Positions 1 to 8,380 of a DNA stretch of 64,000 nucleotides are shown piece by piece; position 1 is the stretch's first letter, and each line of letters begins with the position of its first letter. Position numbers and translations under genes: made by a program. Source of the DNA: Vulcanimicrobiota bacterium. Lineage in GTDB: Bacteria; Vulcanimicrobiota; Vulcanimicrobiia; Vulcanimicrobiales; Vulcanimicrobiaceae. The stretch is from NCBI GenBank assembly GCA_013036105.1, contig JAAXCX010000003.1, positions 124,001-188,000 on the forward strand, given 5' to 3'. Below the pieces are notes generated by a model. That model was not told where the DNA came from. It was given only the letters and a program-made list of their open reading frames with translations, and searched no databases.

Positions 1-49
1 ACCTTCAGAGTTCATCCGGTTCCGATGCGGCGTAATGCTACAAACGACG

Positions 50-76
50 GGGCCGACGAAATGCACTCGTCGGCCC
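50..76. terminator. Perfect 10-bp hairpin before the first gene
   Basis: GGGCCGACGA at 50-59 pairs perfectly with TCGTCGGCCC at 67-76 around a 7-nt loop. No T-run follows on the + strand, so this is either a stem-only terminator for a gene left of the window or a structured leader of the gene at 100. Nothing else is recognisable in bases 1-99. Confidence 0.35.
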
Positions 77-99
77 TCTAGGGTTGCTGTCGTTCAGCT

Positions 100-642
100 A
101 TGGCAATTATAAGGAAGAAGGGGCGCGTGCGTCAACGCGCCACGGTGCGACGACCGCGTAACGCCGGGCAATATACAGCCAGATCGCCAGAGTTCCAACA
201 GCGCTGGAACGCTGTTACCCATGCCATTACTGCTATGCGCAGTGGCAAACTTTCGCTCACTAGTGCGGCACGCGAATACGGAGTTGATCCACGCACCGTC
301 GCGCGCCTGGGCGCACCGGCACTGCGCAAGGGCGCGACTGGACGCTACGCGGCCAAGAGCAGCGACAGTCTGCTGCGCATGCTCGTGGTGCCGACACGTG
401 AGGGACTGGCGGAAATCGCCACTCGCTCTTCGCGCGAGGCAACGCAGCTGGCCGAGTATTGGGAAGCCGTGCAGTGGTTCATCGATACCGGCGACACCTC
501 GAAGCTACGAGCGTTTCGCGGCAAGAGCGTCAGCGGTGCCGACGGGAGCCGCTTACCGCTGATAACCGATCCGGATGAATTAGAGCGACTGGGGAACGTG
601 GGCGAGCTGTCATTCGAGTCCATTTACGCGAAGGCTGCATAG
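100..642 (+). CDS. Helix-turn-helix protein of the putative integrated element
   Basis: 180 residues. The first 25 are very basic (Arg/Lys), as in DNA-binding tails. Residues about 50-70 read as a helix-turn-helix, with the pattern LTSAAREYGVDPRTVARL: an alpha helix, a GVD turn and a recognition helix. The remainder (about 90-142) looks helical and contains WEAVQWF. No named family is recognised. The next gene starts 3 nt after the stop, so it heads a small operon with the HNH-like protein and the family B DNA polymerase. A role as element regulator or DNA-binding accessory protein is inference. No good Shine-Dalgarno precedes the ATG, so it may be leaderless or the start may be misplaced. 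Confidence 0.6.
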   Translation: MAIIRKKGRVRQRATVRRPRNAGQYTARSPEFQQRWNAVTHAITAMRSGKLSLTSAAREYGVDPRTVARLGAPALRKGATGRYAAKSSDSLLRMLVVPTREGLAEIATRSSREATQLAEYWEAVQWFIDTGDTSKLRAFRGKSVSGADGSRLPLITDPDELERLGNVGELSFESIYAKAA

Positions 643-644
643 CA

Positions 645-1169
645 GTGGCAGCGCGACGGCAGCGCGATCCGATAGCGGCAGATGCTCGCAGCGCCGCTGC
701 CGTGCGTCGTGCTGCGCAGCGGCGTTGCGCTACCTGTCCCCAGCTGCGACCGGGGGCGCAAGTCGAAACACGACCAGAAGCGCTGCTCACCAATCGCAAT
801 CCGGTGATCTGCTATGAGTGCATGCTAATTGCCTCAGAAAAGTCATCCCAGGAACCGCATCACGTCGCGGGCCAACGCAACAGCGCGCTTACCGTCGCTC
901 TTCCGGCAAATGACCATCGCGCGATCCTCTCGGTTAATCAGTACGACTGGCCTGCACGAACGCTGCAAAACCCGGACGGAAGCCCACTGCTTGCCGCAGC
1001 CGCAGCGCTCCGTGGATTCGCCGATCTGATTATCTATCTGTTGAACGCGCTTATCTATCCGGTTGCGCATTTACTCGAAGCGCTCGATGAGGTTCTGCAA
1101 AACGAGCGCGGGGAGCAGTGGTGGAAACAAACGCCAATTGCACAGTGGACTCCCCCGTGGCCAAAATAA
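645..1169 (+). CDS. Small Cys/His protein, HNH-endonuclease-like
   Basis: 174 residues, GTG start 3 nt after the preceding stop. Two CxxC pairs (CATC, residues 28-31; CYEC, 56-59) are followed by HH at 72-73, N79 and NDHR with H91. That Cys-Cys/His-His/Asn/His order is the layout of zinc-stabilised HNH (beta-beta-alpha metal) nucleases; the assignment is inferred from motif order alone. A hydrophobic segment (about 128-145, LIIYLLNALIYPVAHLL) follows and the end is Trp/Pro-rich. The Arg-rich first 25 residues may be an over-long start. The 3' end overlaps the polymerase gene by 52 nt in another frame, implying translational coupling. The function could be nicking or cutting for element replication, or defence; untested. 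Confidence 0.5.
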   Translation: MAARRQRDPIAADARSAAAVRRAAQRRCATCPQLRPGAQVETRPEALLTNRNPVICYECMLIASEKSSQEPHHVAGQRNSALTVALPANDHRAILSVNQYDWPARTLQNPDGSPLLAAAAALRGFADLIIYLLNALIYPVAHLLEALDEVLQNERGEQWWKQTPIAQWTPPWPK

Positions 1170-4100
1170 CCCCCATTGATTCACTGCGCATGGCGCTGCG
1201 CGTCTTCCCCGATTTGGGAGATGCGAAGAAGCGCTCGAAGCGTGAGATAGCGCATACCGACCTTCCCACGCGCAGGCTTGTCCTAGATTTTGAAACCCGC
1301 ATCGATGCGTTGCAGGCTATGACGTTTGGTTGCTATCGCTACTATTCCGAGGGCGGGCCGTGCGTTGAAGAGGGATTGGTCTATTCACGCAACCTGAATC
1401 ACAACGAGCGGCGCACTCTCAAACGCTATGCGCAAAAGCGCCGGGCTGACACCGACTGGCCAGCGAGCCACGTTCTACAGCTGCTTCCGCTGTCCGAATT
1501 CGTGGAGAGGTTTTATCTAGCGGCTTACAAGGGACGCTGCCGCGTCGTGGGTTTCAATCTGCCTTTCGATGTGAGCAGAATGGCCAGCGGTTTTGCCAAA
1601 GCGCGCGGTCGATTCGCTGGCGGCTTCTCGCTCAATCTTTCGCAGTACGACGATGGAACCGGACGGCTGCGCGCCGATCGCTTCCGTCCCAATATCGCCA
1701 TCAAGCATATCGATAGCAAACGCGCTCTCAAAGGCTTTACTGGGAGGGCTACGCCGGACAAGGCGGATCGTATTCCGGAACATTCCCCTTCGGGCCAACC
1801 GGAAGAGGGCTATAAGTTTCGTGGTCATTTCTTAGACTTGCGAACGCTGGTTTTTGCGCTGACGGACCGAGGACACTCACTCGAATCGGCTTGCCGGACC
1901 TTTGCCGTTGAGCATCCGAAAACAAAGGCACAAGAGCACGGTACTGTCACCGATGAATATATCGATTACTGTCGGCGAGACGTTCGCGCGACTGCCGAGC
2001 TCGATGACAGGGCGATGGTCGAATTTAAGCGTCATCCGATCCCGTTGCAGGCAACCAAGGCTTACTCTCCCGCTTCAATCGGGAAAGCGTATCTGCGCGC
2101 CATGAACATCGCGCCGGTCCTGCAACGCCAACAATTCCCGATGAAGTATCTGGGCTATGCTCAGTCTGCGTTTTACGGCGGGCGCACGAGCGCCCATGTT
2201 CGCAAGCTGCCGGTGCCGGTTGTCTACTGCGATTTTCTCTCGATGTACCCGACAGTGAACAGCCTTATGGCGCTCTGGGAGTTTGTGATCGCCAAACGGG
2301 TTCGCATCATCACGGACTGTCGCGACGAAATCGAGGCCCTTCTGCGTGACATCACCCTAAAGAAACTCTTCGACCCGTTGAGCTGGACGAATTTTAGTGC
2401 GTTCGTGCGTATCATTCCAAACGGCGACGTTCTACCGATTCGCGCTCCCTATTCAAATGAGAGTAACGACTTTCAGGTGGCGGTTAACCACGTCTATGCG
2501 TATTCGGATAATCCCGAGGACGGCGTTTGGTATGCACTGCCGGATGTCATCGCCTCGGTGCTTCTCACGGGACGCATTCCGCGCATAGTTGACGCATTCC
2601 GAATCGCGCCCGAAGGGACTCTCGAAGACCTCAAGCCGGTCAAGCTGCTTGGCACGGTTCCAATTGACCCGCGCTGTGGCGATTTCTTCCGCCGAATTAT
2701 CGAACAGCGCAAGGTACTTTCGGTGCAACAGAACCTCTCACAAGAAGACCGCGAGCGCTACAACGTCGCGCTGAAAGTGCTCGCGAATGCGACTAGTTAT
2801 GGCATCTTCGCAGAGATGCTCCAACGCGAGAGCGACGAGACGGTCGAGGTGACCTGTTACGGAATCGACTCCGCGCCGTACATCTGTTGCGTAAAGCATC
2901 CCGAAGAGGCCGGCGAATTTTGTTTCTCGCCGCTGGCCTCGCTTATCACAAGCGGAGCTCGTCTCATGCTTGCCATGCTGGAGCGTTGCGTAACCGATCT
3001 CGGGGGCACCTATGCAATGGAAGATACCGATTCGATGGCGATTATCGCCACGCAATCGGGTGGCGCTATTCCGCGCGTGGGCACGGAAGCGCATATCGAT
3101 GCAGATACGATGCGTGCGCTATCATGGGCGCAGGTTCAGCGAATCGTAAAGCGCTTTGCGGCGCTCAATCCATACGATAAGCACATCATTCTCGGCTCAA
3201 TTCTGAAAATCGAAGTGGACAATTTTGACCCGCAAAGTGGCAAGCAGCGAGAGCTGTGGTGCTATGCAATCGCCGCAAAGCGCTATGCGCTCTTCGTTAT
3301 CGATGAACATGGCGAACCGGCTTTGCTGCAAAGCGGCCTCAATAACAAGGACGATAGATGGTCCGAGCATGGCCTTGGCCACCTCCTGAATCCTACCGAG
3401 CCGCAAAGCGAAGATCGTAACTGGATAGCGCAGGCGTGGCTGCGAATGATTCGGCGTGCATTGGGCCTGCCGACGCAGCGATTCGCTTTCGAAAACCGTC
3501 CAGCAGTCTCACGCATAACCATTAGCAGCCCTACGCTTATGCAGCGCTTTGCGGACTATAACAAAGGCAAAGCGTACTGCGCGCAGCTCAAACCATTCAA
3601 TTTCATGTTATCGTGCCACGTAAAGAAGCTGGGGCAACCCCTCGGGGCCGATCCGCAACGCTTTCACCTCATTGCGCCGTACGAACCAGACGCTACGAAA
3701 TGGCTGAAGGGCCTATGGACAGACCAATACGCCGGTAAGCGCTATCGCATTGCAACGTCCGGCGCGCACGGAAGCCGCAATGCAGCGCGCGTGAAGACTT
3801 ATGGCGATGTGCTGCGTGAGTACGAGTATCATCCGGAAGCAAAGTGCGCTGACTCCTTCGGTAAGCAATGCGCAAAGCAGACAATAGGGCTACTGAAACG
3901 GCGAAGCATACGCATTGCGGGTTTCCGGTTCATCGGCAAAGAGTCAAACAAATTAGAAGAGGTCGAGGCCGGTATGGTTCACGATCCGGATAGCGTCTAT
4001 ACCGAGTATCCCGATAAGCGGCGCGACGAATGGGCAACGCGGACACAGCCCGCGCTTAAGGCCATGCCGTTGTGCGAGCTTCAAGAAAAAAGCGGCTTAT

Positions 4101-4189
4101 CACGCGCGACCCTGCAAGCGATCCGAGCCGGGCGAAGGCCTCATCCGAAGAACCAAACCTTGCTCAGGGCGATTGCAAAGGCCCACTAA
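1118..4189 (+). CDS. Family B DNA polymerase with 3'-5' exonuclease and C-terminal HTH
   Basis: 1023 residues. Exonuclease motifs are complete: DFE (D57, E59), NLPFD (N147, D151) and YCRRD (Y284, D288). Polymerase motifs are complete: motif A DFLSMYPT (D372), motif B KVLANATSYG (K553, N557, Y561, G562), motif C YAMEDTDS (D636, D638) and a KRY at 721-723. The A-to-B distance of about 180 residues leaves room for an insertion like TPR1 of protein-primed polymerases (phi29 type) or pipolin PolB; Pol II-type enzymes have a shorter gap. About 300 extra C-terminal residues end in an XRE-like HTH (about 983-1023). GTG codons occur at 1118 and 1121; GGGAG lies just upstream and spaces better with 1121. 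Low chromosomal likeness and its neighbours suggest a mobile element. Whether it primes from protein, de novo or conventionally cannot be read from sequence. Confidence 0.88.
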   Translation: MVETNANCTVDSPVAKITPIDSLRMALRVFPDLGDAKKRSKREIAHTDLPTRRLVLDFETRIDALQAMTFGCYRYYSEGGPCVEEGLVYSRNLNHNERRTLKRYAQKRRADTDWPASHVLQLLPLSEFVERFYLAAYKGRCRVVGFNLPFDVSRMASGFAKARGRFAGGFSLNLSQYDDGTGRLRADRFRPNIAIKHIDSKRALKGFTGRATPDKADRIPEHSPSGQPEEGYKFRGHFLDLRTLVFALTDRGHSLESACRTFAVEHPKTKAQEHGTVTDEYIDYCRRDVRATAELDDRAMVEFKRHPIPLQATKAYSPASIGKAYLRAMNIAPVLQRQQFPMKYLGYAQSAFYGGRTSAHVRKLPVPVVYCDFLSMYPTVNSLMALWEFVIAKRVRIITDCRDEIEALLRDITLKKLFDPLSWTNFSAFVRIIPNGDVLPIRAPYSNESNDFQVAVNHVYAYSDNPEDGVWYALPDVIASVLLTGRIPRIVDAFRIAPEGTLEDLKPVKLLGTVPIDPRCGDFFRRIIEQRKVLSVQQNLSQEDRERYNVALKVLANATSYGIFAEMLQRESDETVEVTCYGIDSAPYICCVKHPEEAGEFCFSPLASLITSGARLMLAMLERCVTDLGGTYAMEDTDSMAIIATQSGGAIPRVGTEAHIDADTMRALSWAQVQRIVKRFAALNPYDKHIILGSILKIEVDNFDPQSGKQRELWCYAIAAKRYALFVIDEHGEPALLQSGLNNKDDRWSEHGLGHLLNPTEPQSEDRNWIAQAWLRMIRRALGLPTQRFAFENRPAVSRITISSPTLMQRFADYNKGKAYCAQLKPFNFMLSCHVKKLGQPLGADPQRFHLIAPYEPDATKWLKGLWTDQYAGKRYRIATSGAHGSRNAARVKTYGDVLREYEYHPEAKCADSFGKQCAKQTIGLLKRRSIRIAGFRFIGKESNKLEEVEAGMVHDPDSVYTEYPDKRRDEWATRTQPALKAMPLCELQEKSGLSRATLQAIRAGRRPHPKNQTLLRAIAKAH

Positions 4190-4241
4190 TAGCCCCCGAT
4201 TCCGGGAGGGGCGCCAAAAAAACCTCTGGCTCGGGGGCCCC

Positions 4242-4271
4242 TTGGCTCGTGGCTCTAGGAGGCGGTACAAT
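4242..4271 (+). promoter_or_regulatory. Possible sigma-70 promoter for the secreted-protein gene
   Basis: TTGGCT (4242-4247) and TACAAT (4266-4271) are separated by 18 nt, with 4 of 6 and 5 of 6 matches to the consensus hexamers. A start near 4278 would leave a leader of about 30 nt before the ATG at 4309. It suggests the downstream gene is expressed independently of the polymerase operon. Confidence 0.4.
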
Positions 4272-4308
4272 AGAGGCACTTCCGGCGACTCTTTTTGCAG
4301 AAAGGGCA

Positions 4309-5958
4309 ATGATGCGGTTACATTCGAGGCTTTTCGCGCTTTGCGTCGCGCAAGTTGTCGCATCCGTATTGGTTATCAGCGAAAGCCGAATCGCTCGCGC
4401 ACAGATAAATGTAGTCCCACCGAATCAAGCACGTATCGCCGCTGTCGCGGTCATGCGTTCCGGTTCATCGACGTACGCAGACTTCTGCACGCCCGATGGA
4501 CAGATCACTGTTGTTATTACGCCAGCCAATACTGATGCGAATTACAACTCGGCCTCCTTTGGGAATGGCGCCGCATACCTTCAGGATGCGAGTGGCGGCG
4601 AGTACCATCTAAATGACGGAAACGCAAGCATTCAGTCCGGCTGTTATCGACTCAAGGTGGCTAATTCCACGGTAACCGGCGACGCTTTTTTGAAAATTAC
4701 CGTTTGGTATAACCCTCAAACTACGGCTCGCGCGTCATCGCCGCAGCCAACACCATTTCATCCTGCGTCTTCGGCCACGGATGCCTACGTAAACGGAAAC
4801 CAGCTACCTCAACTCATCGCGCCCACTCCAAGGCCAAGGCCCACTGCAATCCACATTCCGCGACCTCTATCAACACCGAAGCCCGTCGTTATCCACTCTT
4901 GCGGCGCCGTAGCTAGTGGCGGCTCAATAGGGCAGGAAGCAATTGTCGATAGCTCGGGATGCAAGAGAGCGACTTCGACGCGACACCGCACTGTTACGTA
5001 TAATCCGACTCCCCGACCGCGTAGCGACGCAAGTGAAAGAATCAGCGGAGAGCGGGCGAGTGACAGGTATAACCAGCAGAACCAGGCTATCTCGGCGATA
5101 GTCAACGCACTATTTCCGCCACTAACGTCTAATCCATACGACGATATGGTTTCTGCCAACTATCGGATTCCGCCGCCGGACTTCTCCGAGGATGATTTTT
5201 CTTGTCCCAATGGGAGCAATAGCACCGACATTGTCGAGTATATTGGAAAATTGGAGGAATCCTATAGGGTTTACGTGCGCGCCGTCAACTCTGACGTTGA
5301 TTCTTACAACAATGACGTGCAGCAGATCGCGGATTTGCACCCCACGCAATCCCTTTACGATAGTGAAGTAGCTGACGCTAAGCGGCACTTGGATACCAGC
5401 CTTGCAGATGACGACTCATTTTATAAAGACCAGGATAATTCTTACCGATCTCTGATACGCCGAGAGTGTCAAAGGCTGGCACAGGTGAATGCGAGCACTC
5501 AAAGATACAGCTCGCCACAATTCCAAGTTTCTCGGCAATTAGCCACGGGAGTAACTGCCTTTAGCCCGGCTGGCGCGGCGTATACCTTCCAGCGCCCTCG
5601 GGGGTGGACTCAGGGAAGGCTTTATTACGGAATGCAGTGGGTTGATCCGAGCGCAACCTTTACATCGTATATAGCTTTAACGTCACAACCATTCGCGGGA
5701 ACTGCGGTTGCTTATATGGAGAGGAACCTACGCAACGCGGTACACGATATAATGTCGCTCCCACGAAAAACGCTGCGACTGTGCGCTGGCTCCGCCTATG
5801 GCGTTTTCACGACCTACGCCATAAACGGGGGTGTCTCAGAAGATTTATATGTGGTGCTCAACGGCACTGCCTTCGAAGTACAGTACTTCCACGGACCGTC
5901 GGGGCCGGTTTCTGCATCTGCCGAGCGTTCCCTCAGGAGCTTTTGCCCTAAAAAATAG
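4309..5958 (+). CDS. Secreted protein with Pro/Thr-rich linker, unknown function
   Basis: 549 residues from ATG 4309 (a second ATG follows at 4312; AGAAAGGG lies just upstream). The frame is open further upstream, but this start gives a clean signal peptide: a basic start, the hydrophobic LFALCVAQVVASVLVIS, then ARAQ. Order: a short beta-rich domain with paired Cys (about 55-130), a Pro/Thr/Arg linker (about 150-240), a helical, coil-like section with DVDSYNNDVQQIADLH, and a C-terminal beta domain of about 120 residues containing GRLYYGMQWVDPSATF. No family is recognised. It lies between the polymerase operon and a second secreted-protein gene, so it is probably element cargo acting outside the membrane. 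Confidence 0.7.
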   Translation: MMRLHSRLFALCVAQVVASVLVISESRIARAQINVVPPNQARIAAVAVMRSGSSTYADFCTPDGQITVVITPANTDANYNSASFGNGAAYLQDASGGEYHLNDGNASIQSGCYRLKVANSTVTGDAFLKITVWYNPQTTARASSPQPTPFHPASSATDAYVNGNQLPQLIAPTPRPRPTAIHIPRPLSTPKPVVIHSCGAVASGGSIGQEAIVDSSGCKRATSTRHRTVTYNPTPRPRSDASERISGERASDRYNQQNQAISAIVNALFPPLTSNPYDDMVSANYRIPPPDFSEDDFSCPNGSNSTDIVEYIGKLEESYRVYVRAVNSDVDSYNNDVQQIADLHPTQSLYDSEVADAKRHLDTSLADDDSFYKDQDNSYRSLIRRECQRLAQVNASTQRYSSPQFQVSRQLATGVTAFSPAGAAYTFQRPRGWTQGRLYYGMQWVDPSATFTSYIALTSQPFAGTAVAYMERNLRNAVHDIMSLPRKTLRLCAGSAYGVFTTYAINGGVSEDLYVVLNGTAFEVQYFHGPSGPVSASAERSLRSFCPKK

Positions 5959-5995
5959 AGGCTGCGCCGCATTAGAAGCAAGCCTTGTGAAAGGA

Positions 5996-6032
5996 GCAGT
6001 GCCCCTAATCGGTTACCGATTGGGGGCACTGC
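5996..6032. terminator. Bidirectional hairpin between convergent genes
   Basis: GCAGTGCCCCTAATCGG (5996-6012) pairs with CCGATTGGGGGCACTGC (6016-6032), 17 positions with one G-T wobble and a tiny loop. It sits between two genes that converge on it (stops at 5958 and 6073). There is no T-run, as at several other putative terminators here. Confidence 0.6.
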
Positions 6033-6072
6033 GTTAAGTGGGCGCGAGACTCGTCAGCTCTTCAGCAGTTTT

Positions 6073-6585
6073 TCACGGCTTGTGATTCACATTTACACAA
6101 GTCATATTGACGATGGTCGCGTTTGAGCTCGTATAGGCAAGCCCACTTAGGTACACTTCTCTGTAGTTCGATTTCACCGTAATAGTTGTGCCCGGAGTAA
6201 GAATCCACGCGAGGGAAAGCGGTGTCCCGTCCCAATCGTACACAGCGGGGTTCGAGTCGCTAGAGACGACGACATACGGAGCGTCCAAACCAGTGCCGTT
6301 ATTACTGCTGCCGGGTTTTGCCGAGATCGTTGTAATTTGCATTGAGTCTGCGGCAGGCGCCATACAACGTCGGTATGTATAGCCCCAGCCGTGAGTTTTT
6401 GGAGCGCCAACGGGTCCACCAATTCCATCAGTTAATGCATCACCGACCAAAGGGACTATATTCACGGTTGCCTTCGTATTCTTGCCGAGCGTAATCGAAT
6501 GTCTTACAGCCCATGCAGGTTGCGCGGTCGAGCCTACCGCGACAAGGACCAGCGCTGCGGCCAGAACGTGTCTCAAAACTGACAT
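6073..6585 (-). CDS. Small secreted protein, unknown function
   Basis: 170 residues with a textbook signal peptide: hydrophobic VLAAALVLVAVGS and AWA before the likely cleavage site near residue 26. The mature part is Gly/Thr/Ser/Asn-rich and probably beta-structured, with one Cys in TYRRCMAP and one near the end (NMTCVN) that could form a disulfide. A strong Shine-Dalgarno (AGGAGGG, minus strand, 6593-6599) fixes the ATG at 6585, and a TAGAAT -10-like box lies further upstream (6611-6616, forward coordinates). No family is recognised. It converges on the secreted-protein gene to its left and is the last gene before the comEC junction. Confidence 0.65.
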   Translation of the reverse strand: MSVLRHVLAAALVLVAVGSTAQPAWAVRHSITLGKNTKATVNIVPLVGDALTDGIGGPVGAPKTHGWGYTYRRCMAPAADSMQITTISAKPGSSNNGTGLDAPYVVVSSDSNPAVYDWDGTPLSLAWILTPGTTITVKSNYREVYLSGLAYTSSNATIVNMTCVNVNHKP

Positions 6586-6645
6586 TTATTAACCCTCCTG
6601 TCAGTCCAGTATTCTAACGCCCGCACGGAGTCCTCGCAGCCCGAA

Positions 6646-6733
6646 GCCTCGTTTTCACGGCTCCTGGCTACATTCGGCATAGGGCCTTGAGGCGACACAG
6701 CGCCTCGCTCCCGGCACAGGGGGCCTCGTTTTC
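6646..6733 (+). repeat. Direct repeat beside the comEC break (possible attachment site)
   Basis: GCCTCGTTTTC occurs exactly at 6646-6656 and again at 6723-6733, with weaker similarity continuing (TCCTG in both). Between the copies is AGGCG...CGCCT, a small inverted repeat (6690-6705). The second copy ends about 20 nt before the first recognisable comEC codon. It may be a recombination core or a remnant of repeated integration; the matching left end is outside the window. Confidence 0.3.
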
Positions 6734-6754
6734 GGGCGTCCTGTCTCCTATCCC

Positions 6755-8380
6755 GTGCTCGTCACCGCGGGACTGCACCTTGGCGTCGTGGCTGCGTTAA
6801 CACTTCTATTCTTGCGCTTTCTGAGCGCGTCGCGCGTCGCAGCTTGCGCGCTTACGATTGGCGCCATTTGGTTCTACGCAGTTTTTAGCGGCTTGCACTT
6901 GCCGGCGATGCGGGCGGCGACGATGATCTCGTTCGCGCTCACAGCTTACGCATGCGGCCGAGCAACGCGAGCATGGAACATCTTTGGAGCGGCGCTCCTG
7001 GCAATTGCGTTTTTCGATCCGCTAGCGATAGGAAACGCCTCGTTTGCGCTTTCTTTTTCGTGCGTGGGCGCAATAGTGCTCTGCGCGGATTCCATTGACA
7101 ATGGACTCCAGCGGTATGCGGAGATCCCGGCCCGCCTGCGCGAAATCTTTGCGCTCACGCTGGCGACGCAAATCGGGACCTGGCCCCTGACGGCGTCGAT
7201 ATTCTTGCTCTTCGCGCCGTACGCGATCGTCGCAAACGCCGCGGTCGTGCCTTGCGTCGGAGCGACGATGATGCTCGGCGCGTTGCAACTTACGCTCGCG
7301 TCAATTCCCCCGCTCGCGCAAGCGGTTGCAAACCTCAACGGTTGGATACTGGCGTGGATCGTCGCGACGGTGCACACGCTTGCGACCCTGCCCGACTCGA
7401 CGGTCGCTGCGATGCCGCCGCCTCCGTGGACCATCGCGGCCTACGATCTCTTGCTCGTCGCCGCTGTCTTTCTTTGGAAGCGTAGCGCGAGAGACTTCGC
7501 TCCGGCACTTTTTATTCTCGGGGTTCTGCTCGTCGCGTGGCCGCCGCGCATTCCGGACCACCGGCTGCAGATCACCGTGCTCGACGTCGGACAAGCCGAC
7601 GCAATCGTCATTCGCACGCCTCGCGGGCACACGCTCCTCGTCGATGCGGGCGGCCGTCTGGAGCAAGGACACGGCAGTGAATCCACGGCTGAAGCGGTGG
7701 GCGAGCGCATCGTCGTACCGTTTTTACGCCGGCAAGGCGTGCGCACAATCGATGCGCTGCTGCTTTCCCATCCGCACGGCGATCACGCCGGCGGCGTCGC
7801 TCCAGTGCTGCGTGCACTTCCAACCGGTGAATTCGCCGACAGCGGGCAGCGCTACAACGGCTTCGCTTACAACGACGCGCTGCAGGTTGCGGGAACTCAG
7901 CACACGCCGATCGTTTATCCGCGCGCCGGCGCCGTTTTGCGAACCGACGACGGCTTGACGCTGAGGTTCATCGGACCGTCGCTGCCCCTTCTCACGCATA
8001 CGCGCAACGACATCAACAATAACTCGCTTGCCTTCATACTGCAGTACGGCGGATTCCGCATGCTCTTCACCGGGGACGCCGGCGCGGAAGCCGAGCAGCG
8101 TTTCTTATCGGAGGGAATCGATCTGCACGCCGATGTCCTCAAGGTTGGACATCATGGCTCCGCCTACAGCTCGACGCCCGCGTTCATGAGTGCAGTGCAT
8201 CCGGCGTACGCGATCATCTCCGTTGGCCGGCATAATCTGTTCGGACATCCTGCGCCCACAACACTCGAATCTCTGCAACGCTTCGGTGCGCACATCTATC
8301 GCACGGATGAAAACGGCGCGGTCACCGTTACAACCGACGGCCGCGCCACCAGTGTCATGGTGAGCTTGTCAAACAACTAA
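6755..8380 (+). CDS. comEC: ComEC/Rec2-family DNA-uptake channel, lacking its N-terminus
   Basis: 541 residues. ComEC carries single-stranded DNA through the inner membrane. Visible here: the TAGLHLG motif that opens the competence membrane domain, at residues 4-10; several membrane segments to about residue 265; and a C-terminal metallo-beta-lactamase domain with SHPHGDH, TGDAG and KVGHHGS. Usual family members are 700-800 residues and have about 200 residues (DUF4131/OB region) before that motif. Reading upstream in frame gives only non-homologous codons, then a TAG at 6680. The gene is thus probably truncated by insertion of the region to its left. An assembly join or a naturally short paralogue is possible. 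The GTG at 6755 is only nominal. Confidence 0.75.
   Translation: MLVTAGLHLGVVAALTLLFLRFLSASRVAACALTIGAIWFYAVFSGLHLPAMRAATMISFALTAYACGRATRAWNIFGAALLAIAFFDPLAIGNASFALSFSCVGAIVLCADSIDNGLQRYAEIPARLREIFALTLATQIGTWPLTASIFLLFAPYAIVANAAVVPCVGATMMLGALQLTLASIPPLAQAVANLNGWILAWIVATVHTLATLPDSTVAAMPPPPWTIAAYDLLLVAAVFLWKRSARDFAPALFILGVLLVAWPPRIPDHRLQITVLDVGQADAIVIRTPRGHTLLVDAGGRLEQGHGSESTAEAVGERIVVPFLRRQGVRTIDALLLSHPHGDHAGGVAPVLRALPTGEFADSGQRYNGFAYNDALQVAGTQHTPIVYPRAGAVLRTDDGLTLRFIGPSLPLLTHTRNDINNNSLAFILQYGGFRMLFTGDAGAEAEQRFLSEGIDLHADVLKVGHHGSAYSSTPAFMSAVHPAYAIISVGRHNLFGHPAPTTLESLQRFGAHIYRTDENGAVTVTTDGRATSVMVSLSNN

Follow-up and report, generated by a model that had tools for sequence, protein, structure and literature searches.

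Evidence for a casposon insertion in comEC, a DNA-uptake gene, in an uncultured Eremiobacterota bacterium

The window, the whole 64,000-nucleotide stretch of DNA analysed here (C3:124001-188000), lies on a contig of ~210 kb (C3) in the metagenome-type genome bin of an uncultured bacterium of the Eremiobacterota (G000; 2.34 Mb in 29 contigs, 95% complete, 4.22% estimated contamination). Its first 6.75 kb (window 1 to 6754) form the right-hand part of a mobile element that has a terminal inverted repeat (TIR) and a target-site duplication (TSD) at both ends and that continues to the left of the window as far as C3:115388. The element is followed by a 3' fragment of comEC (6755 to 8380, forward strand), which encodes the rest of the Competence channel domain and the metallo-beta-lactamase domain and matched PF03772 (E = 8e-41), PF00753 (E = 2.3e-18), and TIGR00361 (E = 1.9e-65) in profile searches. 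The original prediction held that this gene starts at its TAGLHLG motif, about 200 residues late. Similarity to ComEC does begin exactly there, at window 6755 with VLVTAGLHLG (from position 28 of the Pfam Competence profile and from 162 of 663 in NCBIfam TIGR00361), but the missing 5' part amounts to ~262 codons. The DNA directly upstream had been read as unrelated to comEC, and inspection of the sequence and its frame agrees, with an in-frame TAG stop at 6680. The first possible start of the listed 3' open reading frame (ORF) is a GTG at 6755, inside the TSD, and no Shine-Dalgarno-like sequence was seen upstream of it.

Leftward extension of the contig recovered the 5' part of comEC at C3:114606-115394, on the same contig and outside the window. 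A search of G000 placed the N-terminal ComEC domain DUF4131 at C3:114729-115166, on the same strand as the 3' part, and the two halves stand in the right order and orientation. The 5' frame has 262 codons and ends in VHVLVTAG and a stop; because this TAG lies inside the left TIR, the 5' product would lack the channel and metallo-beta-lactamase domains. In a whole-genome profile search, the single PF03772 match in G000 was the window fragment. Since this is the only Competence-domain match and the 5' part lies further left, comEC is split by ~15.4 kb.

The whole element covers C3:115388-130754 (15,367 bp) and has a GC content of 0.55, compared with 0.61 in its flanks. The TIRs extend over ~54 nt; they agree exactly in the first 33 nt, after which a run of C differs in length by 2 nt. 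The right TIR, GGGATAGGAGACAGGACGCCCGAAAACGAGGCCC... (window 6701 to 6754, reverse strand), has its partner at C3:115388 to ~115441; the left comEC half runs into GGGATAGGAGACAGGACGCCCGAAAACGAGGCCC, and the reverse complement of GGGATAGGAGACAGGACGCCCGAAAACGAGGCCC precedes the right half. A search of G000 found the TIR core at just these two element ends and no second genomic copy. Outside the TIRs, the same direct repeat, CGTGCTCGTCACCGCGGGA, is found on both sides; its GGGA doubles as the end of the TIR, which leaves the 14-bp sequence GTGCTCGTCACCGC as the duplicated core. The right copy (window 6755-6768) encodes VLVTA of VLVTAGLHLG, and the left copy is at C3:115374-115387. A different direct repeat, the 11-nt GCCTCGTTTTC, had originally been reported to flank the stretch upstream of comEC. 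It is indeed present at 6646 and 6723, but it is neither an insertion footprint nor an attachment site: the copy at 6723 is part of the TIR, with an inverted partner at the far end (C3:115409), and the copy at 6646 to 6656 (forward strand) is a short internal match to the TIR, not a target-site repeat. TIR-like repeats within the element are near chance (two TIR 11-mers against 0.24 expected by shuffling).

We reconstructed the empty site by joining 200 bp of each flank with one TSD copy. The joined flanks aligned to comEC of the same genus with DNA identities of 83.1% over 391 bp (L110), 83.3% (L108), and 79.9% (L113), and the printed alignments to these three loci showed no gap at the join. 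The sequence across the junction reads GTGCAC-GTGCTCGTCACCGC-GGGACTGCAC, and GTGCTCGTCACCGC stands on both sides of the element in G000 and as a single copy in the relatives. When the 5' and 3' halves of the protein are placed on the relatives, there is an 18-nt overlap between them, which is what a duplicated target predicts. The junction is uninterrupted in four related genomes (G105, G100, G103, and G102), with a frame of 847 aa in G105, and the relatives do not share the short comEC together with the sequence upstream of it. The 5' half to the left, the TIRs with their TSD, and the uninterrupted junction in relatives uphold the earlier proposal that an element entered comEC. Because the empty site aligns uninterrupted in relatives, both a naturally short comEC and an assembly join (a chimera) are rejected. 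An artificial join of unrelated contigs is thus hardly credible as the cause of the break: the bin is of the metagenome type with 4.22% estimated contamination and its contig C2 repeats the comEC neighbourhood at 83-89% identity, but inverted repeats, a direct repeat shared by both sides, and an exact empty site would not arise from a misjoin, and the two comEC halves share a single 210-kb contig, correctly ordered and oriented.

Casposons are self-synthesizing transposons that move with the help of a Cas1 enzyme, a relative of the CRISPR spacer integrase, and the CRISPR adaptation enzyme is considered to derive from them. They are defined by Cas1, a family-B DNA polymerase (PolB), TIRs, and TSDs (PMC4046053), and all four features are present here. 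The Cas1 encoded in the element (516 aa; PF01867, E = 1.6e-38) finds its best PDB match in 6opm (E = 4e-23), with the CRISPR Cas1 chains ranked behind it; the 6opm record is named CRISPR-associated endonuclease Cas1, and we take it to be the Methanosarcina mazei casposase. Residues E168, H249, D261, and E264 (numbered in a 518-aa frame) are invariant in 18 homologues, as are three cysteines of the C-terminal region. In the Cas1 tree, the protein and two others from Eremiobacterota form a group (support 1.0) within a clade that takes in Chloroflexi, Acidimicrobiia, and Acidobacteriota and lies apart from the archaeal casposases and from the CRISPR-type Cas1 of the phylum.

The polymerase gene (1118 to 4189, forward strand, 1023-aa frame) encodes the motifs DFLSMYP, NATSYG, and DTDS and an HTH-like C-terminal end. 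Its product matches PF03175 weakly, and its homologues adjoin casposases of bacteria (up to ~60%) and of archaea including methanogens (~30%). Beside it, on the same strand, lie genes for an HTH protein (100 to 642; weak PF05225 match) with homologues in 31 casposon loci and, in between, for a small CxxC protein (645 to 1169) conserved in 18 casposon loci. Two cargo ORFs (4072 to 5958, forward; 6073 to 6585, reverse) have no family match, and the second encodes 170 aa with a signal-peptide-like N-terminus. Further genes of the element encode several HTH proteins, a ParB-like protein, a DNA methyltransferase with a fused Mrr-like domain, and, separately, an Mrr-type nuclease for which the candidate defence family PDC-S02 gave a match (E = 8.5e-129). 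The cargo may have a composite history. An HNH endonuclease had no match among the scanned ORFs; the HNH gene is common in family 2 and 3 casposons and is neither universal nor defining. No tyrosine or serine recombinase was found among the ORFs scanned, a set that took in only some of the very short ones, and within this set the stand-alone Cas1 is the only integrase. A search of IMG/VR with the casposase gave no match. A prophage or tectivirus-like element, the first guess from the polymerase, was dropped on the finding of Cas1, TIRs, and TSD. A CRISPR-Cas locus was likewise rejected, given that the scanned ORFs contained no other Cas match and that Cas1 stands apart from the CRISPR-type Cas1 of the phylum. 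The element is almost certainly a casposon that entered comEC where the gene encodes the TAGLHLG motif.

Like known casposons (families 1-4; PMC4046053, PMC6614799, PMC9939771), the element combines a Cas1 whose active-site residues are conserved with a casposon-type PolB, has TIRs and a 14-bp TSD that shares GGGA with the TIR, carries genes for HTH proteins as well as cargo for restriction and methylation, and measures ~15 kb. By description, it may be likened to family 3 casposons such as AceAut-C1: it has a bacterial host, its PolB is akin to the archaeal casposon enzymes, and its Cas1 continues at the C-terminus into zinc-binding and HTH regions, as described for AceAut-C1 (PMC4046053). 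In the published cases, casposons target intergenic sites or the 3' ends of genes for tRNAs or proteins (PMC4046053, PMC6614799). In contrast, the present casposon lies inside a protein-coding gene, which it breaks; it also differs in its Eremiobacterota host and in that no HNH gene was found.

Casposase or Cas1 matches were obtained in 33 of 149 genomes of the phylum, the weakest of which look like CRISPR-type Cas1 in the tree. Several genomes carry many casposase matches, fragments included (12 in G053, eight in G107, and five each in G108 and G038), which suggests casposon expansion in several Eremiobacterota genomes. Ends and TSDs were resolved for a subset of these related casposons; their ends are of the GGGATAGGAG type and their TSDs measure 14-15 bp. 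In G084 and in G129, where the arrangement is tandem, the casposon site is the secA 3' end, with the 15-bp TSD CTTA(C/G)GC..GCGGCTC; the same TSD, again in a tandem arrangement, is present in G038 (L067, L076, and L062 for this set of loci). A casposon also lies beyond ppk in G038, and another occupies the 3' end of mqnC in G093. Casposons of Terriglobia and Edaphobacter lie beside tRNA-like sequence (recognised from translation rather than by a tRNA scan), and a Granulicella casposon (L146) splits an outer-membrane beta-barrel gene, implying that gene breakage is not unique to the comEC casposon. A ATGCGYCAYCCG-like motif occurs ~28 nt upstream of several insertions (L060, L061, L182, and L184) and is possibly a casposase leader motif. 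In near relatives, a common motif like ATGCGTCATCCG precedes several insertions, and the comEC site is without it. Among the 130 genomes of the phylum with a Competence-domain match, one casposon in comEC was found, the one described here. The survey does not support comEC as a recurrent casposon target: the other short comEC matches that were read were contig ends, frameshifts, or the serine-recombinase break described below, plus one locus in G104 (L204).

Casposases join transposon ends at staggered target positions and leave a TSD of ~14 bp (PMC6614799). By this chemistry, the casposase of the element would have joined the transposon ends to the two target strands 14 bp apart, and gap filling would then have produced the 14-bp duplication. 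Judging from its family, the element's own polymerase probably serves to replicate or repair the element. The 5' fragment of comEC is truncated and the 3' fragment is without a good start, so DNA uptake via ComEC should be lost; from the sequence, we strongly infer loss of ComEC function, and the loss of uptake that the original prediction expected is plausible. The M. mazei casposon is reported to excise leaving one target copy (PMC10359463), and an excision of this kind would restore comEC exactly. Other competence genes are present in G000, namely DprA (C1:196882) and an HHH_3/ComEA-like gene (C3:108667).

A second kind of break was found in comEC of relatives. In two genomes of the same genus, G102 (L113) and G103 (L108), the comEC frame ends in SHPHGEP*, the break falling at the HPHGDH motif (HPHG/DH) that binds metal, and in G102 a serine recombinase (PF00239, E = 6e-19; PF07508) follows directly after the break. 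The complementary right-hand breakpoint, GGCGA-TCA, is present in G104 (L203), G101 (L205), and contig C2 of G000 (L194). In G050 (L214), which belongs to a different genus, the recombinase again follows comEC at HPHGDH. A large serine recombinase adjoins the comEC break in G102, C2, and G050, and this recombinase is present in four genomes of the family. From the shared breakpoint, we infer that the breaks in G103, G104, and G101, where no recombinase was seen, have the same cause. The same break in two genera and the shared breakpoint within the genus indicate that comEC was hit repeatedly, and the elements that break it are of no fewer than two unrelated kinds.

The explanations considered for why comEC was hit all accept the element as a casposon, and the evidence at hand is one casposon in comEC, read from sequence data of an uncultured host. 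Chance is the explanation we lean towards: with a casposase that accepts many targets once its preferred site is taken or missing, the casposon would have landed in comEC, with the effect on uptake a by-product. This agrees with the comEC target being without the ATGCGYCAYCCG-like motif seen upstream of several near-relative sites, with the Granulicella casposon that likewise splits an ordinary gene for an outer-membrane barrel, and with the casposase of A. boonei, which shows little target preference in integration where its own site is missing (PMC6614799). However, two unrelated kinds of element in comEC within one genus look, by informal judgement, like more than chance for an ordinary gene.

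Alternatively, and somewhat more doubtfully, the casposon could be one of the elements selected to break comEC, as a host that does not transform cannot cure them; this presumes natural transformation. Both the hypothesis and examples have been published (PMC4774983), G000 keeps DprA and a ComEA-like protein, and the serine-recombinase element sits at HPHG/DH in G102 and in G050 of another genus, with the same breakpoint in G103, G104, G101, and C2 (the last with a recombinase). Against such selection, only one casposon is in comEC, and its relatives lie at secA, mqnC, tRNA-like, and other sites. In Listeria, excision of the comK prophage restores comK, and a parallel can be drawn for a reversible comEC. 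That comEC is a contested switch, which casposons and serine-recombinase elements independently and adaptively target to escape curing and which precise excision would turn back on for uptake, seems unlikely.

Mobile elements are known to disrupt comK, comYC, comFA, comM, and comEC (PMC4774983), and a transposon-broken comEC has been described in Piscirickettsia salmonis (PMC12955456). The present case resembles these in that an element splits an uptake gene while other competence genes (DprA and ComEA-like) remain; it differs in that the element is a casposon and in that recurrence at one site in comEC is seen only for the serine-recombinase break. Our literature searches found nothing linking casposons with comEC or with Eremiobacter, and among the papers mentioning both casposons and competence, none was, by its title, on competence genes as casposon targets. 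The casposon class and elements breaking competence genes, including comEC, are known; a casposon at the biologically loaded comEC site is new. To our knowledge, few bacterial casposons have been described, and the comEC casposon and its clade widen this record with sites at the 3' ends of secA and mqnC, at tRNA-like sequence, and inside genes. A casposon in the gene for the DNA-uptake channel, with another class of element in the same gene and genus, offers a natural test of the anti-curing idea, in which mobile elements disable transformation to escape being cured.

Two minor observations concern other copies of comEC. In G104, the similarity of the comEC at L204 (near 11471) breaks off beyond residue 104 of the 3' part. 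Contig C2, which may derive from a co-binned relative, carries a copy of the genes downstream of comEC (G000:C2:37441-85000, L194-L196) with 83-89% identity to the window, and it holds a second broken comEC 3' end that is split once more by ~36 kb.
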